DNA from: a bacterium
Lineage (GTDB): Bacteria; Lindowbacteria; 2-12-FULL-62-27
NCBI GenBank assembly: GCA_016202645.1
Contig: JACQOF010000074.1
Coordinates: 1-43,827 of the forward strand
Direction of reading: 5' to 3'
Length of the DNA stretch: 43,827 bases
Of the stretch, positions 3 through 19,739 are shown one piece after another. Every line of letters begins with the position of its first letter. The stretch's first letter is position 1. Position numbers and translations under genes: made by a program. The notes under the pieces were generated by a model. The model did not search any database and was not told where the DNA came from. It saw only the letters and a list, made by a program, of their open reading frames with translations.

Positions 3-1412
3 CAGGGCTGGACGATGGTGGGGCCGAACAAATCCGTACCGGCGGGGTGGAATTTAAAGAGCACGAGCGGGGGTCTGTCGACTGCCCCGAAGGTATATGT
101 CTGGAACGACGTGACGGACGTCTATGACGAGTCGACCGGCGACGCCGTGCGCGGACTTGCCTACTGGGTCAAGGATGCAACGGGCGGCCGGGTGTTCGTG
201 CCGTCGGACGGGTTCGGGTCCGCGTCCGAGACCGTTCAAGTCCGTCTGAAAACCGGCTGGAACCAGATCGCCAGCGGCCAGTATTTCTTCGTGAGCTGGG
301 ACTCGAGCGTGGTCTTCGACACCTCAAGCCAAAATGACACGGCCCTTCCGGCGTCCGAGCGCCTGACCGCCGAGCAGGCCGGCGCGTCGAATGTCCTTCA
401 GAATAAAGTCTACTGGTACACGGGTTCCAACTACGTCTACGGCCCCGCGAGCGAGACGTTCAGTCTGACAACTCTGCAACTGAAACCGATGGTCGGATTC
501 TGGCTCAACGTCACGACGGCCTGCACGATGTACGTTTACCCAAATCCCGCGGCGGCCGAAACTCATGCCACGGAAATCCTGACGCAATCCGCGAAATACT
601 CGAGCCTGGCTGCCGGCTACAAGCAGACCGGCCAAACCGGCAATGAGCAGAACTGGGCCGTCCAGCTTGTGGCGTCTTCGGGCGGCGTGACCGACTGGCA
701 GAATTACGTCGGCGTGAAACCGACGCTCGCCGAGCGCCGCGCCGCCGGCGCCTTGGAGGCTCCGGGCCTGGCGTCGGGTTATCTCACATTGGCCGTTCGG
801 CCCTCTCTAGGATCTGTATCCAGCAACGCGCAACCAGCATCCAGCACCGACGCCTGGATGGCGGCCAGCTACGCCGACCCGCAGTCCCCGGGCCACGCAT
901 GGGACGTCGTCCTCTCGACGGACCTCGGCGCCGCAACCCTGACGTGGGACAACGTCGACAACCTGCCGTCTGCCTACGAGGCGTATCTGATCGGCGCCCC
1001 GGGCGGCGCCGTGAATTTGCGAAATTCCGCCTCTCTCCCTTTCTCCCTTTCTCCCTCTCTCCCTGTCTCCCTGACCCTGGCCATCGGCTCCCCCGAATTC
1101 GTCGCCCCCTTCATCGCCGCGCCGCTCTCGAAGGAAAATACCTTCATCTACCCCAACCCCGGCCCGGACGACGCGACCGGGAACATGACCTTCAAGTACA
1201 ACCTCCCATCCGCCGCGGACGTCAGCCTGAAAATTTTCGACATGGGCGGCAAGCTCGTAAAGGAAATGAAAGGCTCCGGCATCGCGGGGTCGAACACCCT
1301 CACGTGGGACACCACGAACAAGCACGGCCAGCGCCTTGGGTCGGGCGTGTACATCTACAAGCTCGAGTCTGGCGGGACGACGCTGGTGGACAAGCTTGCC
1401 ATCGTGCGCTGA
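3..1412 (+). CDS. Secreted surface protein with FlgD/T9SS-like C-terminal sorting domain (5' partial)
   Basis: The reading frame is open to the left edge: the codons just before the first ATG (position 15) read QGWT, matching DKWTM in the homologous protein at 11147-14677, so the true start lies outside the window. The visible part has repeated beta-rich modules with the GWN motif (KTGWNQIASG) and aromatic-rich stretches. The last 90 residues (from NTFIYPNPGP to VDKLAIVR) form an FlgD-Ig/T9SS type A-like domain with the typical YPNP start, the SGVYIYKLESG turn and a basic end. Such domains direct export and surface attachment in T9SS bacteria; no T9SS component is visible here. Two short-word arrays lie inside the coding sequence (815-848 and 1029-1078). 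The last ~270 bp and the downstream repeat are nearly the same as at 14400-14840, a sign of duplication. Function beyond surface exposure is unknown. Confidence 0.85.
   Translation, partial: QGWTMVGPNKSVPAGWNLKSTSGGLSTAPKVYVWNDVTDVYDESTGDAVRGLAYWVKDATGGRVFVPSDGFGSASETVQVRLKTGWNQIASGQYFFVSWDSSVVFDTSSQNDTALPASERLTAEQAGASNVLQNKVYWYTGSNYVYGPASETFSLTTLQLKPMVGFWLNVTTACTMYVYPNPAAAETHATEILTQSAKYSSLAAGYKQTGQTGNEQNWAVQLVASSGGVTDWQNYVGVKPTLAERRAAGALEAPGLASGYLTLAVRPSLGSVSSNAQPASSTDAWMAASYADPQSPGHAWDVVLSTDLGAATLTWDNVDNLPSAYEAYLIGAPGGAVNLRNSASLPFSLSPSLPVSLTLAIGSPEFVAPFIAAPLSKENTFIYPNPGPDDATGNMTFKYNLPSAADVSLKIFDMGGKLVKEMKGSGIAGSNTLTWDTTNKHGQRLGSGVYIYKLESGGTTLVDKLAIVR
815..848 (+). repeat. In-CDS word array, 7-bp period
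   Basis: Consecutive 7-mers ATCCAGC, AACGCGC, AACCAGC, ATCCAGC encode the linker SSNAQPASST. The homologous linker of the protein at 11147-14677 carries an unrelated 8-bp word array (14065-14102). Confidence 0.6.
1029..1078 (+). repeat. In-CDS CT-rich word array, 8-bp period
   Basis: 8-mers of the form CTCCCTnT (n = T, T, C, G) end in CTCCCTGA and encode alternating Leu/Ser/Pro residues just before the sorting domain. On the other strand the word is AAAGGGAG with variants AGAGGGAG and ACAGGGAG. A second copy with a different word order is at 14299-14341. Confidence 0.75.
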
Positions 1413-1640
1413 GAATCAGTTGACAATTTCTCATTGGTGCAATGACAGATTGGTGCGATGCTCGCGGGGCCTGATCAATGGTCATTTCATCATTGCACCA
1501 ATGAGGAACGGTCAACGGATTCAGAAGCGTGCTGAATCGGTTGAAAATTGTTCATTGGTGCAATGACAGATTGGTGCAATGCTCGCGAGGCCCTGATCAA
1601 TGGTCATTTCATCATTGCACCAATGAGGAATGGACAACGG
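1413..1640. repeat. Family A inverted repeat array (two units)
   Basis: Two ~115-bp units follow the stop codon directly. Each has a left arm with ATTGGTGCAATGA words, a short variable core (ctcgcggggcctga or similar) and a right arm carrying the inverted words (TCATTGCACCAATG). A second variable spacer (agaagcgtgctgaatc) separates units. Related copies are at 2035-2254, 5722-5946, 14678-14841 and 17771-17879. Confidence 0.85.
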
Positions 1641-1663
1641 AATAAGGAAAAGCATACTCGTAC

Positions 1664-2026
1664 ATGAAAGGCGATGATTTGTCAGACCGATTTGTAGAGT
1701 TTGGCGATGCGGTGCTGACAGTAGTAGAAGGTCTGCCGGAGACAAAAACGGGCCGGCATATTGGCGAACAGCTCATGCGGTCCGGCACGTCCTGCGGCGC
1801 GAATTACGAGGAGGGCCGTGGCGCGGAATCGCGCGGGGACTTTGTTCATAAGCTGGGAGTAACCCACAAGGAACTTCGAGAGAGCCGCTTTTGGTTGAGG
1901 CTTATCCTCAAGCGAAAAATAACGAGAAACGGCGCGGTGGATGTGCTGGAGGAATGCGAGGAATTGTGCGCCATCATCGGGAAAAGCATAGCAACAGCAA
2001 GAACGAGAAAGAGGAGTGATTTGTAA
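1664..2026 (+). CDS. Four-helix bundle protein (23S-IVP/Avd-like family)
   Basis: This 120-residue protein has the signature of the TIGR02436 four-helix bundle family: a GRHIGEQLMRSGTSCGANYE segment, the EEGRGAES acidic motif, then HKLGVTHKELRESRFWL. Family members include proteins encoded in 23S rRNA intervening sequences and, more distantly, Avd, the pentameric accessory protein of diversity-generating retroelements that binds the reverse transcriptase and nucleic acid. It is small and charged and has no signal peptide, so it is probably cytoplasmic. An AAGGAAAAG stretch lies ~13 nt before the ATG. The gene sits between two family A repeat arrays (1413-1640 and 2035-2254) and is an isolated cistron between surface-protein genes. 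A paralogue at 10507-10875 is flanked by a different array family. No reverse transcriptase or rRNA gene is nearby, so its molecular role here is not known. Confidence 0.9.
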   Translation: MKGDDLSDRFVEFGDAVLTVVEGLPETKTGRHIGEQLMRSGTSCGANYEEGRGAESRGDFVHKLGVTHKELRESRFWLRLILKRKITRNGAVDVLEECEELCAIIGKSIATARTRKRSDL

Positions 2027-2034
2027 CGAGTGTT

Positions 2035-2254
2035 GGGCAATGGTCATTTCATCATTGCACCAATGAGGAATGGTCAACGGATTCCCCGGCGTCGGTTGAA
2101 AATTGCCCGTTGGTGCAATGACAGATTGGTGCAATGGTCGGGAGGCCCTGAATAATGGTCATTTCATCATTGCACCAATGAGGAATGGTCAACGGATTCC
2201 CCGGCGTCGGTTGAAAATTGCCCGTTGGTGCAATGACAGATTGGTGCAATGGTC
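2035..2254. repeat. Family A inverted repeat array (two near-identical tandem units)
   Basis: The unit starting at 2041 recurs at 2156, a 115-bp period, with almost no difference. The spacers here read ccccggcgtcg and gtcgggaggccctga, unlike those of the copy at 1413-1640. Confidence 0.85.
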
Positions 2255-2265
2255 AAAAATAGCAC

Positions 2266-5710: not shown

Positions 5711-5721
5711 ACAATAATTGA

Positions 5722-5946
5722 GCAATGGTCATTTCATCATTGCACCAATGAGGAAATGGTCAACGGATTCCGCGGCATCGGTTGAAAATTGTTCATTGGT
5801 GCAATGACAGATTGGTGCAATGGTCAGGAGGCTCTGATCAATGGTCATTTCATCATTGCACCAATGAGGAATGGTCAACGGATTCAGAAGCGGGTCGAAA
5901 CGGTTGAAAATTGCTCATTGGTGCAATGACAGATTGGTGCAATGGT
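5722..5946. repeat. Family A inverted repeat array (two units)
   Basis: Two units with a 116-bp period (5726 and 5842) begin 12 bp after the stop of the fibre gene. Spacers differ (cgcggcatcgg; agaagcgggtcgaaacgg; gtcaggaggctctga), while the hairpin arms are almost unchanged. Confidence 0.85.
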
Positions 5947-5952
5947 CAAGAA

Positions 5953-6083: not shown

Positions 6084-6158
6084 GCTATTGGCTGATTGGC
6101 TAATAGCTAACGGCTAATAGCTAACAGCAAACAGCTATTAGCCAACAGCAAATAAACC
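6084..6158. repeat. Family B word array, copy 2
   Basis: Words built on TTGGCTn and nAGCTAA, with CTATTGG, CTGATTGG, CTAATAGCTAA and, on the right, CTATTAG, CCAACAG, form an imperfect inverted array. It ends just before the Shine-Dalgarno GGGAGG of the gene at 6176. Confidence 0.75.
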
Positions 6159-6175: not shown

Positions 6176-9100
6176 ATGACTCGATTCGCTGAAGGTATTT
6201 CCCGACTTGTTGTCGCTTTTCTCATGTTTGGCCTATGGCCAATAGCCAACAGCCAATGGCAAACAGTAGTGGAAGCGGCCGAGCCCAACAAATACATTTC
6301 GTTCCAAGGACAGCTGAGCGACTCGACCGGGGCGCGGATCAACGGGAATGTTTCCGCGACGTTCAAGCTCTGGAGCGTGCCGGCCGGCGGGACGGCGCTG
6401 TGGACGGAGGCGCAGACTCTGGCGGCGGACAACGGCATCACAAGCGCGACGCTCGGATCGGTGACGGGGCTGACGTTGCCGTTTGACACGCAGTACTGGC
6501 TGGGCGTCACGGTGGGAACGGACGCGGAGATGAGCCCGCGGATCAGGCTGGCGGCGTCGCCGTACGCGTTTACGGCGTACAGTCTGACGGACAGCGCGCT
6601 GGCGCGGGGGACGTTGACGGTGGCGGATACGGCGGTAATCAACGGATGGGTCGGCATCGGCACGGCGAGTCCCGCCGCCCGGTTGGACGTGGCGGGTGGT
6701 TCCTCCGTCGGCGGCGAAGCCGCCCTGATCGGGGGCCCGCTGGGGGTGGGGAAAGGCGGCGTCGTTGGCGGACGGCTGAGTTTGTTCAGCACCACAGGTC
6801 GCCAATTAACGCTGGAGATGTCCGATACCAATGACGCGGTTATCTCAAATAGCTTTGGCAAAATTCGGGTCACGCCGGTCACGGACTTCATCGTTTCGGA
6901 CACGCTGTTGGTCGTGAACAAGCAGAACGGCAGGGTCGGCATCGGCACGGCCAGTCCTGCTCAGAATCTGGATGTGGCCGGCACCGTGCAGGCCACGGCG
7001 TTTGTGGGGGATGGATCGGGACTAACGGGCCTATCGACGAGCGCCGCTCCGGACACGGACTGGACCGTCGACGGCTCGGGGAATGTGTACAGAACCACGG
7101 GAAACGTCGGCATCGGGACGGCGTCTCCGTCTGACAGCCTTCATGTGATGGGCAGGATACGAATGGATGGAGGGCCGGATGACCAGATGATTGACTTCAT
7201 CAAAAGCGGCACAATAGGGTCTTCAAGCAGTCCGGACACGTTTAGGATCCACGGCGCCGGTGGTATTCATCTCCGAACCTTTGGCAGTTCTTGGGCTGAC
7301 CGCATGAACATCACAAGCACTGGCAACGTCGGCATCGGGGATACGACACCGGGGGCCAAGTTGCGCGTCGCGGGCGATGTTTCTGTTTCTGATTCGCTGG
7401 TGGTGGGGGACACGCGGTTGGTTGTATTAAAGAGCGGCAACGTCGGCATCGGGACGGCGGCTTCAGCTTATCCATTGGACGTGCAGAACAGCGTCTCCGC
7501 CGGCGCCGCGTGGCCACAGCTTCGCCTCACGAACACTGCGGATTATATCTCAGGCGTTTCACTGGTCCGCAGCAGTGGAGCCGCCGGCGGCGAGTGGGTC
7601 GTTTCCCGGAGCAACAGCGCGGGCGCCGGAGGATCCCAGCCCGATGCATTTACGATTGGAGTGAACGGTGTCGGCAACTACCTCAGCATCACCACTGCCG
7701 GCAATGTCGGAGTAGGAACTCAGAGCCCGGCGAACATACTCTCCGTGGCGGGAAACTCGAATTTCGCAGGCAACGTCGGCATCGGGACGACGGCGCCCGG
7801 GGACAGTCTGCATGTCTCCGGCCGGATTCAAATGGACACGAACGCCGCGACAAGCGCGGCGGACGGCGCGATGCGGTGGTCGGGATCGGATTTCGAGGGG
7901 CGAAAAGGCGGATCGTGGGTGTCGCTCACGTCGGTTGGGACGGTGTCGCCAAGCTCCCTCTCGTCGGCCATTACGTCCGACAGCATCGCGGCGGACGCGG
8001 TGACGTCGGCCAAGATATTGGACGGCACAATCGCGAACGCGGATCTGGCCTCCGGGAGTTTTCCAAGCGTCACGAGCGTCGGCACGCTCGGCTCGCTGAC
8101 CGTCTCCGGCGTCTCCAGTTTTTCAGATTCCCTGATTGTGTCGGACACAGCGTTGGTGGTCAACAAGCAAAGCGGCAAAGTCGGCGTCGGGACCGCGAGT
8201 CCCAACATCGGCAGTTTCACCGGCGTGGAGATTTCGGCCCCCGCTGCCGGCTTGGCGCTGACGTCAACCGACGGCGGCGGCCGGCGGTTCATCATCGGAT
8301 CGACGACGGGCAACGCGGGGCTTTACGTCCGGGACGAAACCGCCGGGTCGTATCGGATGATGCTGGCCGACTCCGGGTCGCTCGGCATCGGAACGATCGG
8401 CCCGGACCGGATGCTGGACGTGCTCGACGCCGGCAACCCGCAGGTGCGTCTCACCCAGGCTGATGCGACGGCTTACGCGGACTTGCACATGAGGAGCACC
8501 GGCGATCTCGTGATAAACGTCGACGGCGTTGCGGATCAACTCGTCCTCGACAATGGCGGCAACGTCGGCATCGGGACGACGAGTCCGGGGGATAGTCTGC
8601 ACGTGAACGGAACATTACGCGTCGAGGACACGATGGTGGTGGGCGACACGTGGCTGGTTGTGGACAAGAGCGCCAAAGTCGGCGTCGGTACCGCGAGTCC
8701 TTCCGAGCAATTGCACGTCAAGGGGACGTCCCATAACAGGCTGAAGGTCGAGGGGGGGACCGGGAGTTCCGTCGGCATGAACATGGTTGAAGGCGCCAAC
8801 AGCTCGTTTGTCCAGGTCGAAAATGGAAACCGGATGGGATTCTATTCCGGCGATCAGACCACGGCCGACATGGTGCTGACCTATGGCGGCAACCTCGGGA
8901 TCGGTACAGGCACCCCGTCTGACAGTCTGCACGTGGTTGGCCGCGCGAGGATTTCCGACACGCTGACCGTCGGGGATTCCTACATCGTGGCAGGCCCGGC
9001 GGGCGTTGGCATCCGGAACCTGAGTCCCTCCGGCATCCTTGACATCAGAACTGGCAACGAGTACGAGCTTCGGTTTTCTGGAAATTTCATCGCCAACATC

Positions 9101-10369: not shown

Positions 10370-10378
10370 AGGAGATCG

Positions 10379-10490
10379 GAGAAAGCAGCAAAGAGCAAAG
10401 CGGCAATGGTCAATTATCAAAGAATGCAGACCCCAATGGGTCGGTTGAGACTTGATCGTTGTTGCTTTGATGCTTTGACAGTTTCTCAGA
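10379..10490. repeat. Family D word array, left copy
   Basis: The left arm has AGCAAAG words (gcagcaaagagcaaagc) then caatggtcaattatcaaag; the right arm is inverted (gttgttgctttgatgctttg). It lies between the fibre gene and the four-helix bundle gene. The same words recur after that gene. Confidence 0.8.
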
Positions 10491-10506: not shown

Positions 10507-10875
10507 ATGAAGGGTGACGATGTCTCTGATCGCATGGTGGCGTTCGGAGCGACTGTTCTGGATCTGGCGGAGGCTCTTCCCCAAACGCGGTCCGGACGGC
10601 ATGTGGCCGATCAGGTCATGCGGTCGGGAACGTCCTGCGGCGCGAACTTTGAGGAGGGGCGCGGCGCGGAATCACGAGCGGATTTTGTGCACAAGCTGTC
10701 GGTGACGCACAAGGAGCTTAAGGAAACCCGATACTGGCTTCGCGTGGTGGTGAAGAGAAAAATGTCAGACGGCGTCGCGGTCGAGCTTCTTGAGGAGTGC
10801 GAAGAACTCTGCGCGATTATTGGGAAGAGCATATCGACTGCCAAAGGCGGCCGTAAAGAATCGGTTGAGACTTGA
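10507..10875 (+). CDS. Four-helix bundle protein (23S-IVP/Avd-like family), second copy
   Basis: This 122-residue paralogue of the protein at 1664-2026 has GRHVADQVMRSGTSCGANFE, EEGRGAES and HKLSVTHKELKETRYWL, plus an ELLEECEELCAIIGKSI C-terminal helix. AAAGG lies ~11 nt before the ATG. The family folds as an antiparallel four-helix bundle and often forms oligomers; Avd of diversity-generating retroelements belongs to the wider group. The gene is flanked by two copies of the family D array. The right copy overlaps the end of the gene: the last residues (ESVET) and the stop codon are read from array sequence, so the array has become part of the protein. No reverse transcriptase, template repeat or rRNA is nearby. 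Function unknown; association with repeats is seen directly. Confidence 0.9.
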   Translation: MKGDDVSDRMVAFGATVLDLAEALPQTRSGRHVADQVMRSGTSCGANFEEGRGAESRADFVHKLSVTHKELKETRYWLRVVVKRKMSDGVAVELLEECEELCAIIGKSISTAKGGRKESVET

Positions 10876-11061
10876 CCGTTGTTGCTTTGTTGGTTTGAAA
10901 ATTGATCCGGAGGAAGTTTTCGGAGAAAGCGGCAAAGAGCAAAGCAGCAAAGAGCAAAGCAGCAAAGAGCAAAGCGGCAATGGTCAATGGTCAAAGAATG
11001 CCGAACACAAAGGGGTCCTTTGAAACTTGATCGTTGTTGCTTTGATGCTTTGTTGGTTTCA
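10859..11061. repeat. Family D word array, right copy
   Basis: It starts inside the four-helix bundle gene (gaatcggttgagacttga), continues with inverted words and then AGCAAAG, AGCAAAGC repeated three times, caatggtcaatggtcaaag, a core, and the inverted arm ttgttgctttgatgctttg. It duplicates the array at 10379-10490. Confidence 0.82.
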
Positions 11062-11146: not shown

Positions 11147-14100
11147 ATGAAACGAATTAAACTCATGGCTCTTACGGCGCTGATTCTCGCGGGAATTGGC
11201 CTCATCGCCTATGCCCTTCTGACTTCGACCAACTACCAGTACACCGAAACCGTGCTGGTGACCGGGGGCGATACCGCCGCGTCGGTGAATTACCGGTATA
11301 CCGCCGGGCTGGGCCAGCCCGCGGCCTCGGATAGCGTCGCGAGCGCCAACTACGTGATGCGGCCGGGGTTTTATCACGAGATCACCGCCGCGCATACCGG
11401 GTCGATCTGGTATGTGAACGCGTCGACCGGGCACGACACCCTTGGAAACGGAACGTCCTCCAGTCCCTTCAAGACCATCCAGCGCGGCGTCAACTCCGCC
11501 GCGGCCGGCGAGACCGTTCAGATCGCGGCCGGGACCTACACCGAGACGACCATTCTCATCACGACGTCCAACATCGCGCTCGTCGGCGCCGATTCGCGCA
11601 CCACCATCATCGACCCGCCCGGCGCCAACACCGTCACGAATCTTTACGGGATCCTCGCGCAGAATGTGACAGGGCTCGTCCTCAAAAATCTCGGTGTGAC
11701 CGGCGCCTACACCGGCGTGCGGTTCGACAACGTCGACTTCTCTACCGTCACCGGCGACAGTTTCGGATCAAACAGCCGGCACGGCATCGAGCTGGTGAAC
11801 GGGTCCGACACGAACACCATCACCCAGTGCGACCTCAGCCACAACGTCGTCGGGTCCGGGTTCGGGATCGAAATCAACGGCAGCGCCTTCAACACCCTTT
11901 CAAACAGCATCCTCAACGCCAACGGGCAGTACGGCGTCTACACATCGAGCGGCAACGACAACACCGTCTCGGGAAACACGGTGAATTCCAACTCGAGCTA
12001 CGGAATGTTTCTCCTGAACAGCGCCCGGCTCATCGTCAAGAACAACACCGTCACCGGCGGCGCCTCGCAGGGCATCCGGCTGAACAATGGATCGAACTGC
12101 GTCTTCACCGGAAACACCGTGAACTCCAACCAATACGGCATCGTGATCGCCGGCCCAAGCGCGCGCGTGACGAACAACGTCATGTCGCAAAATTCCATCT
12201 ACGGCCTCTGGGTCATCAACGGCTCGAACCTCTACGCCGCGCAGAACACCATCACCGACAACACCCAATACCAGATTTCCTTCGACCCTCTCGGCCCGAC
12301 AAACTCCCTCGTCGAGAAGAACAACTTCAAGACTTCCACCACCAACCCCGACAGCATCGTCTACAACCGGTCCGACACCATCCAGACCGTGACCCGGAAC
12401 TGGTGGGGCACGACCGACGAGGCCGTCATCCGGACCAAAATCTTCGACACCGCCGCAAGTCTGAAAACCACATTCAAACCCTATCGCCTCGCCCAGGTCG
12501 ACACCGCCGCCGGCGCCGATACCGGCGCGCCGATGGAACCGCAGGCCGTCGCGGCGAACACGTCGATTGCAGGCGCCGTGCAGATCACGTGGACCAATCC
12601 GGCCTTCGACGAGGACACCGCAACCCAGACGGCCTTCGGCGGCGTCGACGTCTACCGCCTCGTCAACGTCCCCGACTCGGCCAACTGGGTCGGCCAGCTC
12701 CTCGTAAGCCTCACGGGGACCCCGACCTCCTACACCGACGCCGCCGTGAGCGTCGGAAACACCTACTATTACCGCCTGTCGTCGCACGACACCGCGACGC
12801 TCGTCAATTCCAGTTTTCTCACCGACACCGTCTCGGGTTCGCCCGTCTCCGGCAGCGCCGGCGATTCGGTCCTCGTCGACAGCGGCAGCCACCAGATCAT
12901 CTCCAACGGCGGAAACGCCACGCTGTCGATGGACGTGAAGGATTCGGCCTCCGGCACGCTCATCACGAGCGCGAGCGTCAGCGTCACCGCGGTTTTCAAC
13001 GGCGCCGCCGTCTCCGCGCTCGACACCACCCTCACCACCGACACCGCCGGCCGCGCGCGGGTCGTGCTGAAACTCTCGCAGGGCGAAGGCGTCTACGTCT
13101 TCACCGCGTCCCCGGCCCTGAGCGGCGGCCAGAAGGCGCGCTTCGTCGTCTACACCGACCGCCGGCCGGTACAGGCCGACAAGTGGACGATGTTCGCGCC
13201 GTTCAAGAAACCCGTCTCCGGCGTGAACGGCATCACCGTGAACGGGACCCCCGGCCCGGGAAGCGTCATCCTGTATTGGTACGACCCGGCGGCCACAGCG
13301 GTTACGACCTTCGGCCAGTACAAGTCCGTGAGCGGCCAGGCCAGCCCCAACAGTTCCACCGCCGGAACCTTCTCGGATTTTCAGTCCGGCCGCGCCTACT
13401 GGGCGAAATCCGTCGGCGCCGCCGTGACGATCGGCGCGGCGTCCGGCGCCTCCGACGTTCCCGAGACCGTGTACTATCAGGTCCACGTCAAGGAAGGCTG
13501 GAACATGGTCGGCAATCCATTTCCGTTTTTCATCGACTGGGAGCAGGACGTTTTTTTCGACACGAATCCTCTGGATACGGAAGCCCTGCAGTGCATCACG
13601 ACGGCGGCCGCCGAGACTGCCGGGGTTCTCACCAACAAAATCTACTGGCGGGACGAGAGCGTACTGAGCGGAAACGTCGGCTACCGCTACGGCCCATCGA
13701 CTGCCACGTCGACCGAGACCACCGTCCAGCTCAAACCCTGGGCGGGATTCTGGGTCTACCTGCCACCGGCCCCGGCGGTCTGCGACACCGGTTGTACGCT
13801 TCTCTTTTCCGGTTCCATCAAACGCATCCCGCAGACCGTGCCGATCCAACAGCAGGCGCCTTCTTATCTGACAGAAACGGAGAAAGGGAGAGCCGGCGAG
13901 CCGGAGAATTGGGTCATTCAGATCAAGGCAGTCGGGCAGAACGGCGCAAGGGATGATTACAACTTCGTCGGCGTCGCGCCCGGCGCGAAGGAAGGCTACG
14001 ACCGGCATGACGCCTACAAGGCGCCGCCGATTGGCGATTATGTGCAGGTTGGCGTCCGTCCTTTGAGTGTATCGGAGTATCGGAGTATCGGAGTATCGGA

Positions 14101-14677
14101 GAAACCCCAGAGTCCGTTGATGGCGGCGAGCTTGGTGCCGCCCGTCACGACGGTGGCCACGTGGGAGGTTGTTGTCGCGGCCAGTTCAGCCGGCGCGGCC
14201 ACGCTTTCGTGGGACGCCGCGGCTTTGCCGGGAGGCTATGGCGCATATCTCCTGGGCGGCCCCGCCGGTCCTGTTGATTTGCTGAAGTCCCAATCCCTGC
14301 CTCTCTCCCTTTCTCCCTCTCTCCCTTTCTCCCTGACCTTGACCCTGGCCGTCGGCACGCCCGAACACCTCGCGCCGTTCCTCGCCGCGCCGCTCTCGAA
14401 AGAAAACACGTTCATCTACCCGAACCCGGGTCCGGACGCGACGGGAAGCATGAGCTTCAAATACAACCTGCAGGGCGCCGCGGATGTCAGCCTGAAAATT
14501 TTCGACATGGGCGGCAAGCTTGTGAAGGAGATGAAAGGTTCGGGCATCGCCGGATCGAACACCCTCACGTGGGACACCACGAACAAGCACGGCCAGAGGC
14601 TCGGGTCGGGCGTCTACATCTACAAGCTCGAGTCGGGGGGGACGACGCTGGTGGACAAGCTTGCCATCGTGCGCTGA
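11147..14677 (+). CDS. Secreted right-handed beta-helix protein with T9SS-like sorting domain
   Basis: This is a 1176-residue protein with a signal peptide (MKRIKLMALTALILAGIGLI). A segment starting SIWYVNASTGHD and SPFKTIQRGV is typical of pectate-lyase-fold/DUF1565 beta-helix proteins, and is followed by many N-rich coils (NTVNSNSSYGM, NNGSNCVFTGNTVNS) of a parallel beta-helix to about residue 430. Then come a fibronectin type III-like module (ITWTNPAFDED...YYYRLSSHD), an invasin-like Ig module, the DKWTMFAPF/EGWNMVGNPFPF region shared with the protein at 3-1412, and the FlgD/T9SS-like sorting domain. A GAGGTGATGT Shine-Dalgarno-like stretch precedes the ATG. Beta-helix proteins often bind or cleave polysaccharides; no catalytic set could be named here. 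Two word arrays interrupt the C-terminal region (14065-14102, 14299-14341). Confidence 0.87.
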   Translation: MKRIKLMALTALILAGIGLIAYALLTSTNYQYTETVLVTGGDTAASVNYRYTAGLGQPAASDSVASANYVMRPGFYHEITAAHTGSIWYVNASTGHDTLGNGTSSSPFKTIQRGVNSAAAGETVQIAAGTYTETTILITTSNIALVGADSRTTIIDPPGANTVTNLYGILAQNVTGLVLKNLGVTGAYTGVRFDNVDFSTVTGDSFGSNSRHGIELVNGSDTNTITQCDLSHNVVGSGFGIEINGSAFNTLSNSILNANGQYGVYTSSGNDNTVSGNTVNSNSSYGMFLLNSARLIVKNNTVTGGASQGIRLNNGSNCVFTGNTVNSNQYGIVIAGPSARVTNNVMSQNSIYGLWVINGSNLYAAQNTITDNTQYQISFDPLGPTNSLVEKNNFKTSTTNPDSIVYNRSDTIQTVTRNWWGTTDEAVIRTKIFDTAASLKTTFKPYRLAQVDTAAGADTGAPMEPQAVAANTSIAGAVQITWTNPAFDEDTATQTAFGGVDVYRLVNVPDSANWVGQLLVSLTGTPTSYTDAAVSVGNTYYYRLSSHDTATLVNSSFLTDTVSGSPVSGSAGDSVLVDSGSHQIISNGGNATLSMDVKDSASGTLITSASVSVTAVFNGAAVSALDTTLTTDTAGRARVVLKLSQGEGVYVFTASPALSGGQKARFVVYTDRRPVQADKWTMFAPFKKPVSGVNGITVNGTPGPGSVILYWYDPAATAVTTFGQYKSVSGQASPNSSTAGTFSDFQSGRAYWAKSVGAAVTIGAASGASDVPETVYYQVHVKEGWNMVGNPFPFFIDWEQDVFFDTNPLDTEALQCITTAAAETAGVLTNKIYWRDESVLSGNVGYRYGPSTATSTETTVQLKPWAGFWVYLPPAPAVCDTGCTLLFSGSIKRIPQTVPIQQQAPSYLTETEKGRAGEPENWVIQIKAVGQNGARDDYNFVGVAPGAKEGYDRHDAYKAPPIGDYVQVGVRPLSVSEYRSIGVSEKPQSPLMAASLVPPVTTVATWEVVVAASSAGAATLSWDAAALPGGYGAYLLGGPAGPVDLLKSQSLPLSLSPSLPFSLTLTLAVGTPEHLAPFLAAPLSKENTFIYPNPGPDATGSMSFKYNLQGAADVSLKIFDMGGKLVKEMKGSGIAGSNTLTWDTTNKHGQRLGSGVYIYKLESGGTTLVDKLAIVR
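14065..14102 (+). repeat. In-CDS word array, 8-bp period (AGTATCGG)
   Basis: Four copies of AGTATCGG in a row encode SVSEYRSIGVSE. The equivalent linker of the homologous protein (815-848) has a different word, so the site is shared but the content is not. Confidence 0.75.
14299..14341 (+). repeat. In-CDS CT-rich word array, second copy
   Basis: 8-mers CTCCCTTT, CTCCCTCT, CTCCCTTT, CTCCCTGA encode the Leu/Ser/Pro linker before the sorting domain, at the same place as 1029-1078 but in another order and number. Confidence 0.75.
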
Positions 14678-14841
14678 GAATCGGTTGACAATTATTCATT
14701 GGTGCAATGACAAATTGGTGCAATGCTCGCGAGGCCTTGATCAATAGTCATTTCATCATTGCACCAATGAGGAATGGTCAACGGATTCAGAAGCGCGCCG
14801 AATCGGTTGAAAATTGCTCATTGGTGCAATGACAGATTCCC
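14678..14841. repeat. Family A inverted repeat array
   Basis: One and a half units directly follow the stop codon, as after the related gene ending at 1412. The second unit breaks off after gacagattcc. From 14842 to 14924 I see only a possible upstream region of the next gene. Confidence 0.82.
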
Positions 14842-17770: not shown

Positions 17771-17879
17771 CAATGGTTATTTCGAGATTGCACCAATGAT
17801 AAATGGTCAACGGATTCCACCGCATCGGTTGAAAATAGTTCATTGGTGCAATGACAGATTGGTGCAATGGTTGGAGATT
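17771..17879. repeat. Family A inverted repeat, diverged copy
   Basis: A single unit turned inside out: right-arm words first (gagattgcaccaatgat, aaatggtcaacgg), spacer attccaccgcatcgg, then the left arm (ttcattggtgcaatgaca). It is 43 bp from the surE start. It shows more substitutions than the copies in the first 15 kb. Confidence 0.75.
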
Positions 17880-18759: not shown

Positions 18760-19739
18760 AGTTAAATCCGAAATCCGAAATCCGAAATCCGAGATTTCAG
18801 TATCTCGTCGGCCCTGTCCTCTCCCGACGGCTCGGCAGATCCCTCGGCGTGGATCTGCTGAAGGGTGAATGCACCTTTCTGTGTCCATATTGCGAGGTGC
18901 GGGTGCGACATGTGGACCGCCTCGAGCTGTTTGAGTTTTCCGAAACGGACGCGCTCTACGCCGAGTACACGCGCTTCTGCGCGGAATACACGGACCAGCT
19001 CGATTCGGTGACCTTCTCCGGGACCGGCGAGCCGACTCTAATTTCCAATCTGGGAGACATCCTGCGTCAGTTCCGCAAGATCGGGCCGTACCCCCTGACG
19101 GTCATCACGAACGGGTCCCTGCTCTGGAATCCGCGGGTGCGGGAAAACCTGCGGGACGCCGATCTCGTCGTGCCGTCCCTGGACGCCGTCACTGAAAAGG
19201 CCTGGCGCCGCGTGAACCGCCCGCATCCGGATTTGACGCTCGAAAAGTATCTCGATGGAACCCGGCAGTTCTGCAAAGAACGCACCGGCCGCATCTGGCT
19301 TGAAGTCCTGCTCGTCCGCCGCGCCAACGACGGCCTGGAGGACATTGAGGCGCTGGGGCGGTTTCTCAAGACGATCCGCGTCGACCGGGTCCAGCTCGGC
19401 AGTGTCGACCGTCCCCCGGCGGCAAGCCGCGCCGCGCCTATTTCAGCCGCGGCTTTGCAAAACCGGGCGCGCCTGCTCAGGGAGATCAGCGGCCAAAGAG
19501 TGGACGTGATGTCCCGTTCGGCGCCCGCTCCGGAGAAAAAATCGCCGGCGGGGCGCGCGAGCCCGGACTTGTCCAAAAAAATCCTGAAGAGTGTCAGACT
19601 TCGGCCGCAGACCCCCGCGGAAATCCGGAGCCTCATGCGTCTTTCCCGCGGCGAAATGGACCGCGCGCTCCAGCCGCTCATCTCCCGCGGGGAAATCCGG
19701 GCGCGCCGGCACGGCCGTCGGACGTTTCTGCAGGGCTGA
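18756..19739 (+). CDS. Radical SAM protein of the COG0731 (wyosine-synthase-like) type
   Basis: A 327-residue radical SAM enzyme. The cluster-binding motif is C39-x3-C43-x2-C46 (ECTFLCPYC), followed by VTFSGTGEPTLISNLGDIL and TVITNGSLLWNP, the SAM-binding strands. The combination resembles the Fe-S oxidoreductase group related to tRNA wyosine synthases; the bacterial substrate is not known. The C-terminal ~60 residues (TPAEIRSLMRLSRGEMDRAL...) look like a winged helix. The ATG at 18756 overlaps the surE stop. Residues 4-15 (NPKSEIRNPRFQ) are encoded by a run of four identical 7-mers (family I), so the natural N-terminus appears to have been replaced or extended by repeat sequence. Confidence 0.85.
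   Translation: MKLNPKSEIRNPRFQYLVGPVLSRRLGRSLGVDLLKGECTFLCPYCEVRVRHVDRLELFEFSETDALYAEYTRFCAEYTDQLDSVTFSGTGEPTLISNLGDILRQFRKIGPYPLTVITNGSLLWNPRVRENLRDADLVVPSLDAVTEKAWRRVNRPHPDLTLEKYLDGTRQFCKERTGRIWLEVLLVRRANDGLEDIEALGRFLKTIRVDRVQLGSVDRPPAASRAAPISAAALQNRARLLREISGQRVDVMSRSAPAPEKKSPAGRASPDLSKKILKSVRLRPQTPAEIRSLMRLSRGEMDRALQPLISRGEIRARRHGRRTFLQG
18764..18799 (+). repeat. Family I array: four perfect AAATCCG 7-mers at a gene start
   Basis: Four AAATCCG repeats are followed by agatttcag, an inverted fragment. Because 7 is not a multiple of 3, the same word is read in three frames. It starts 8 bp after the first base of the radical SAM gene. Confidence 0.85.

Follow-up and report, generated by a model that had tools for sequence, protein, structure and literature searches.

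How a gene for a small helical protein comes to lie between copies of one repeat family is the question raised by a stretch of 43,827 nt from a bacterium of the Lindowbacteria (contig JACQOF010000074.1 of assembly GCA_016202645.1), which is called the window here in its whole length. The gene, at 1664-2026 on the plus strand, encodes 120 amino acids in an open reading frame (ORF) with the coordinates given in an earlier note on this DNA, and repeats of one array family, family A, are indeed found on each side of it, as that note had described. Gene and arrays together were proposed to be a minimal mobile or diversifying unit. Our results support mobility for relatives of this block, with the whole block present or absent at matched sites on plasmids and in Bacteroides. 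The block of the window is probably a member of a widespread compact mobile element, in which a single gene for a 23S rRNA intervening-sequence protein (IVP) is placed between inverted arrays of 7-8-nt repeats, the IVP would recognise the heptamers and the machinery of movement would be borrowed. The IVP element itself encodes no enzyme of known type.

The product of the window's gene (IVP 1) matched TIGR02436 (23S_rRNA_IVP; E 1.1e-21, 77.1 bits against a curated cut-off of 24) and PF05635 (E 3.9e-13, 50 bits against a curated cut-off of 33.8) in profile searches. Its AlphaFold2 (AF2) model has four helices (pLDDT 93.9), and the structure search with this model gave 2rld as the best match (2rld_E, E 1.2e-5, TM 0.78), followed by 2gsc. 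Both are IVP structures with five chains each, and by analogy with these relatives the product of gene 1 may form a pentameric ring. The protein had been assigned to a group that contains both the IVPs and Avd, the accessory protein of diversity-generating retroelements (DGRs). The IVP part of this assignment is upheld; Avd (4dwl) gave a weak fold match only (E 0.07-0.2, TM about 0.7), the DGR complex likewise had weak E-values, and Avd is a fold relative of the protein and not a member of its family. The resemblance of PF05635 to Avd has been described previously (PMC10053308). The polar residues E73, Q36, E50, N47, S43 and R39 are 88-100% conserved over 216 IVP proteins and are close to the motif GxxRxxxSxxxNxxE of PMC3936711. 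The IVP genes are under purifying selection (median dN/dS 0.11, 30 pairs), therefore the protein does something.

A diversity-generating unit, or an accessory unit of an Avd-type retroelement, is a very improbable identity for the block. It would account for the fold likeness to Avd, and RVT_1 (reverse transcriptase) genes are present in the source genome, on contigs C77 and C106 only. However, no RVT_1 was found on the contig of the window (C48), and among 41 relatives of genome G000, of which 13 carry full-length IVPs, 24 are IVP-free and four with suffix-type or odd hits were set aside, RVT_1 was absent from 7 of the 13 full-length-IVP genomes. The purifying selection and the weakness of the Avd match beside the IVP matches also speak against it. 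The diversifying half of the earlier proposal is thus not supported, with the limit that template and variable repeats were not specifically searched.

The arrays around the gene were described earlier as a 115-bp family. The downstream array (2039-2254) has exactly this period (1.9 copies, 100% matches by Tandem Repeats Finder), but the upstream array (1413-1641) has a period of 122 (1.9 copies, 91% matches), so the 115-bp period is exact downstream only. Each family A unit of about 115 bp is composed of two arms, R and L, which are near reverse complements of each other (1413-1445 against 2052-2084, 33 nt, 91% complementary) and consist of 8-nt repeats of the form CAATGnnn; the order around the gene is R L R L - gene - L R L R. 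The unit at 1413-1522 folds into a hairpin of -52.1 kcal/mol (z -6.6) and the one at 14678-14788 has a z of -6.0, with four other family A units between -2.0 and -3.7. The inverted ends around an IVP ORF, a feature of the 23S intervening sequences (IVSs), are therefore present at this block.

The same gene and ends could also belong to a free-standing 23S IVS acting as RNA, in which the arms pair, RNase III or a similar enzyme cuts, the IVP binds the stem and spread takes an RNA route. This explanation overlaps with the compact element proposed here and differs from it in the nucleic acid used. The arms are complementary and fold, RNase III excises the Coxiella IVS, and GACAGAT heptamers precede the ORF of that IVS (PMC4990558), all of which would suit it. 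We nevertheless consider it unlikely, because the whole window gave no Rfam match, so that the block is not inside an rRNA gene, because a check of 11 other loci likewise showed no rRNA (L103, with an inverted flank score above 30, and 10 of the 20 loci that scored below it), and because the 7 of 13 full-length-IVP genomes without RVT_1 indicate that no reverse transcriptase need be resident. The 11 loci had been checked for the idea that array-less IVP copies are 23S IVSs, which was rejected.

The window's block is one instance of a general pattern. The four-helix-bundle genes lying inside arrays were counted in the source genome, as the earlier note had suggested, and all five full-length IVP genes were bracketed on both sides by inverted short-period arrays (7-8 nt); a sixth, longer and partial match (L006) had no arrays seen by eye. 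Each of the five genes has its own unit, namely CAATGnnn, AAAGCAGC, AGGGATT, GGGAGAAA and AAATCCT. The protein of IVP 2 (10507-10875) is 66% identical to IVP 1, yet it is bracketed by the different repeat AAAGCAGC/AAAGAGC.

The association was surveyed at IVP loci gathered irrespective of repeats. The sources were named genomes searched with the window-type protein (80 loci), relatives and one phylum, 28 genomes behind those loci, and cyanobacterial plasmids. The first test used 76 of 80 loci, the rest having short flanks. For the full set, 28 duplicate and 3 partial IVPs were removed, and 6 of 243 loci were dropped for short flanks, leaving 237. The association is near-universal: arrays of lag 7 or 8 within 250 nt were found on at least one side of 217 of the 237 IVP loci and on both sides of 163, against 160 and 30, respectively, of 587 control ORFs on the same contigs. 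Arrays equally common beside unrelated genes, which the earlier note had named as the observation that would speak against it, were thus not found. Flank autocorrelation was 0.390, 0.363 and 0.346 at lags 7, 14 and 21, compared with about 0.26-0.30 at other lags. Of 329 arms, 300 have a 7-nt unit and 29 an 8-nt unit, and the median distance to the ORF is short, at 27 nt before the start and 11.5 nt after the stop. An arm with a score of at least 10 was present on 331 of 474 sides and on none of 474 shuffled sides; the median arm has 4.7 units, with a typical range of 4 to 5.5. The arrays are inverted: in the first set an inverted flank-to-flank match score of at least 30 was reached by 56/76 IVP loci and 28/550 control ORFs, and direct matches were less enriched (10/76 against 32/550). 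At the 163 both-sided loci of the full set, the opposite side carries the same unit inverted in 142 and direct in 17, compared with 2% for random other loci. Other arrangements were also observed. Genome G010 (L042, L052) has 19 IVP-like matches, many of them in head-to-head pairs of short genes around a AAAAAGTTCC hairpin without heptamers by eye, which is a different arrangement within the IVP family, and in L180 (1400-1500) the IVP gene is preceded by an unusually long array, with some 12 perfect AGCTAAA units.

The repeat sequence is matched to the type of protein, also across phyla. A usable repeat core was available at 216 of the 237 loci, and a consensus heptamer was obtained for 198, of which 147 are distinct. 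By our reading of the IVP protein tree, clades retain patterns such as GNNNAGG, AATTANN, AGTTGNN and AGTCAAA. Between different phyla, as assigned from record titles for the named genomes and as separate groups for the others, so that some of these pairs may be wrong, the mean 6-mer cosine rises from 0.007 at a protein similarity below 0.2 to 0.394 at 0.7 or above (10 pairs). A repeat is shared by 8 of these 10 pairs, by 38% of 76 pairs at 0.6-0.7, and by 1% or less below 0.3. At a protein similarity of at least 0.5 the cosine was 0.099, whereas the GC-stratified null gave 0.016 (s.d. 0.004) and reached the observed value in none of 400 permutations. GAAGTTT is common to loci of Acidobacteria (L090) and Thiohalocapsa (L086), and AATTACG to KSB1 (L156), Bacteroides (L118) and Pirellulaceae (L106). 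Unlike paralogs within one genome do not share repeats (cosine 0.009, 235 pairs).

Arrays also occur alone, and they match the IVPs of their own genome. In 88 stretches (1.16 Mb), 80 solo arrays were found whose distance to an IVP gene exceeds 700 nt, and 21 of them matched a sampled IVP of the same genome at a cosine threshold of 0.3, compared with 1.7 expected from GC-matched IVPs of other genomes. In single-contig stretches, 295,826 b of 20 IVP-free genomes contained no strict array and 282,937 b of IVP-bearing genomes contained 7. Heptamer repeats are common in the intergenic DNA of many prokaryotes (PMC6344855), and the arrays might accordingly be taken for ordinary intergenic slippage microsatellites with no tie to the gene. 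This explanation is already refuted by the flank survey, by the cognate pairing of protein and repeat, by the IVP-free genomes and by the arrays being inverted, not direct.

The mobility of the block is supported by sites where relatives differ by the whole unit. On the Trichormus plasmid pC the block lies between two genes, and six records (H44-H49) at about 97% identity lack it; the region measures 2401 nt with the block and 1973 nt in H44-H49, two of which were compared at base level. In a pair of paralogous operons on Nostoc plasmids, the blocks differ in heptamer and occupy different joints, and each operon thereby shows the empty site of the other. Further presence/absence sites were found in Calothrix, Aulosira and Nostoc MS1, and where relatives have a full block, L169 shows a truncated IVP together with an array, and in L171 arrays are present but no ORF. 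In Bacteroides, 60 genomes matched the block-flanking genes wholly or partly. At one joint, the block of genome G066 is complete and its arrays are GATTTAT; in G131 this joint is occupied by another IVP (66% identical in DNA) whose repeat is of a different, TCAGATT type, and L306 and L307 keep both GATTTAT arrays and have lost most of the ORF. The block of G114 is 71% identical and likewise has GATTTAT arrays; it lies one gene away, and the G066 joint is empty in that genome. Most of 20 other Bacteroides stretches examined are without a block, and one of the 20 (L316) was a wrong place. Together with the array enrichment over other genes of the same contigs and over Y1 transposase genes of the same genomes, these sites support, for the relatives of the block, the mobile half of the earlier proposal. 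No IVP match was found in phage records.

Blocks were also observed within operons. An IVP block lies between nrdB and nrdA, in opposite orientation, in Nostoc edaphicum pNe_5 (L161), and at the joint of cas6 and cas4 IVP elements with different repeats are present in Anabaena sp. 90 pANA02 (L384) and Pseudanabaena galeata pPg_01 (L180). IVP genes have been reported in cas loci in 18 cases (PMC3936711); those between cas6 and cas4 are likely insertions, not cas genes. In another Nostoc plasmid (L178, 1156-1720) the IVP gene is split by a further insertion, with the outer arrays kept, and in L312, L314 and L318 of Bacteroides a different palindromic repeat (TAGGCACGGATTA...TAATCCGTGCCT) occupies the intergenic site of the B. 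oleiciplenus IVP block.

The junctions are mixed. That of L160 has a clean 5-nt duplication, GTAAT, a second has TTCTA, which may be the end of the element itself because L179 ends alike, a third has the imperfect TAATG/TTATG, and the remaining junctions show no duplication. A general rule of 5-nt target-site duplication was withdrawn on this account. No clean junction was found at L161, L163, L164, L179 and L181, and no chromosomal duplication was resolved in Bacteroides, where the intergenic DNA is too diverged. We therefore claim insertion or loss of the block and not a chemistry of transposition.

Several observations weigh against the proposed element. The target-site duplication is clean at one site alone, and the comparison of syntenic strains that the earlier note had suggested was informative for relatives only, as no syntenic copy of the window's own block was found in two genomes of the same family. 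Family A has a more complex structure than heptamer arms usually have, 20 of the 237 IVP loci have no array by the lag-7/8 test, and the unit count near five depends on the threshold and has a long tail. L102 and L123, with a protein similarity of 0.99, share no repeat (cosine 0). The scan for specificity residues, with positions 72, 68, 53 and 16 at the top, was not decisive, as positive Z reached 4.4 and negative scores were equally large (to -4.5). The matching of repeats could also partly reflect co-inheritance of a linked unit. Because linked DNA would match by descent alone, pairs with saturated or near-saturated synonymous sites (dS above 1.8 or not estimable) were examined; 5 of 28 distinct pairs were not scorable, and the repeat was still shared in 15 of the other 23, compared with a background of 1.6%. 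Sharing at such divergence argues for constraint on the repeat and is short of proof of binding.

Constraint and cognate pairing would fit equally well if the IVP were a sequence-specific global regulator or autoregulator, with the arrays as operators around its own gene and its regulon, and if it duplicated without being a mobile element itself. In Geobacter, opposite-strand pairs of 4-5 tandem hepta- or octanucleotides are predicted binding sites of a global regulator (PMC2700814). We hold this explanation to be quite unlikely, since it does not suit the presence/absence of whole blocks, the ORF-deleted derivatives, the insertion within unrelated operons (nrdB/nrdA, cas6/cas4), the solo arrays in coding sequence (window 1030-1072) and the many different systems of one genome.

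In the compact element that we favour, the IVP, a pentameric ring by its solved relatives, would recognise its own repeat on DNA or RNA, perhaps with one array unit per ring subunit. The ring would hold the repeats on either side of its own gene as well as in solo arrays and would mark or bend the array ends; enzymes of the host or of a third party may then copy or move the whole block or, on occasion, only the array. The agreement of 4.7 units with five subunits is suggestive only. Profile searches found no transposase gene in the window's element, whose sole gene is the IVP, and the Y1 transposase matches listed for the genome are on other contigs, with none in the block. As the bearers of arrays, Y1 transposases were rejected: of 20 Y1 genes fetched from the same genomes, 2 were at contig ends, and of the remaining 18 one had arrays on both sides and 8 on at least one side. 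Spread driven by reverse transcriptase was also rejected, RVT_1 being present in 6 of 13 full-length-IVP genomes and 7 of 24 IVP-free ones. Y1_Tnp was found in 13 of 13 full-length-IVP genomes and 11 of 24 IVP-free ones (p 0.0009, post hoc), a difference that may reflect a common mobiliser or simply genomes rich in repeats and that is taken as a lead only.

The features of the window are collected in the table. Gene-less family A arrays are also present on contigs C123 and C4. The family A arrays at 1413, 14678 and C123:21656 begin right after the stop codons of paralogous genes that share their C-terminal end, therefore some copies may have spread via gene duplication. The two octamer arrays sit in the coding frame of two paralogous genes. 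In this assembly, which is 82% complete, no matching IVP was found for arrays of the GGCTATT/GGCTGTT type (2385-2462, 2541-2588, 6096-6152 and 6225-6260), which include a gene-less inverted pair at 2391-2462, nor for a GTATCGGA array at 14058.

Table. IVP genes and repeat arrays located in the window.
Feature	Coordinates	Strand	Basis
IVP gene 1, TIGR02436/PF05635 four-helix bundle, 120 aa	1664..2026	+	ORF, profiles, AF2 model, structure search
Family A arm R, first hairpin unit (R-L = 1413-1522)	1413..1471	+	repeat search, fold
Family A arm L	1476..1522	+	repeat search
Family A arm R, second unit	1534..1592	+	repeat search
Family A arm L, adjoining gene start	1598..1644	+	repeat search
Family A arm L, directly after stop codon	2038..2084	+	repeat search
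Family A arm R	2089..2147	+	repeat search
Family A arm L	2153..2199	+	repeat search
Family A arm R, outer end of block	2204..2262	+	repeat search
IVP gene 2, stop codon within its own downstream array	10507..10875	+	profile search, repeats
Family B array (AAAGCAGC/AAAGAGC), upstream of IVP 2	10378..10489	+	repeats (L003)
Family B arrays, downstream of IVP 2	10858..11060	+	Tandem Repeats Finder, repeats
Solo family A array, L R L R, no gene	5719..5948	+	repeats
Solo family A array, R L R	14678..14838	+	repeats, fold
Solo family A array	17772..17874	+	repeats
Solo octamer array within coding gene; unit GGGAGAAA, that of the IVP on contig C35	1030..1072	+	
Solo octamer array within paralogous gene; matches C35 IVP repeat, cosine 0.60	14300..14334	+	
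Solo heptamer array AAATCCG, near AAATCCT of the C125 IVP; cosine 0.27, below counting threshold 0.3	18764..18792	+	

The IVP blocks share features with several known systems. In the repetitive extragenic palindromic (REP) sequences and bacterial interspersed mosaic elements (BIMEs) with their RAYT (Y1) genes, a gene is bracketed by short repeats that are also found alone, and gene type and repeat type are matched, as is the case here; in contrast, the IVP is not a Y1 transposase, and its repeats are tandem arrays of 7-8 nt instead of REP palindromes. To our knowledge the IVP has no known catalytic site. Miniature inverted-repeat transposable elements (MITEs) and inverted-repeat transposons have inverted ends, presence/absence of the block and internal-deletion derivatives, the last represented here by L306 and L307, but the IVP element has no transposase, its ends are tandem arrays that follow the IVP type, and a target duplication is not established. 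DGRs with Avd share the four-helix bundle and the five chains of the solved structures and differ in sequence family and in the reverse transcriptase, which is lacking at the IVP locus. STRR, another heptamer-array case described alone, resembles the arrays studied here, as the GGGAATC and TAACTGA arrays do, in equal repeat length, intergenic position and tandem arrangement. In the available text, GGGAATC arrays of Xanthomonas and Nostoc (PMC4692102) and TAACTGA arrays of Beggiatoaceae and cyanobacteria (PMC4679880) were reported without an IVP partner, and a repeat-binding protein as a possible mobile element was a speculation of the latter paper. The 23S IVSs with an S23p/IVP ORF of Coxiella and Leptospira have the same protein family, a size class of about 430 nt and inverted ends around one ORF, and the Coxiella IVS has short tandem heptamers (PMC4990558). 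Unlike them, the present blocks are in intergenic DNA and operons and not in rRNA, the repeat differs by IVP type, and solo arrays are scattered through the genome; the Coxiella ORF was described as in reductive evolution, whereas the IVPs here are under purifying selection.

The pairing of the IVP family with short tandem repeats is general and, as far as we found, undescribed; the open-access literature gave no paper linking IVPs to heptamer arrays, subscription papers being mostly outside the search. IVPs are a common bacterial family lacking a known function, and the heptamers are likewise a puzzle, as the most abundant intergenic short tandem repeats in 7006 prokaryotic genomes, for whose function that survey saw no clear clue (PMC6344855, 2018). 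If the pairing holds, there is one answer to both. The IVP element is likely the owner of the seven-base repeats across bacterial genomes. A wider proposition, to which we give somewhat less than an even chance, is that the IVPs are a large, unrecognised family of sequence-reading rings, each pentamer with its own 7-nt word, read at about one per subunit, and more than 100 natural words in all, that IVPs and their inverted arrays constitute a minimal mobile element of a new class, which uses borrowed enzymes, and that these elements are a main source of intergenic tandem heptamers in bacteria. The pairing, if it holds, would also explain the IVP genes in 23S rRNA, cas loci and other operons as insertions and not as parts of those systems, and a family with many natural 7-nt specificities may be useful as a nucleic-acid reader.
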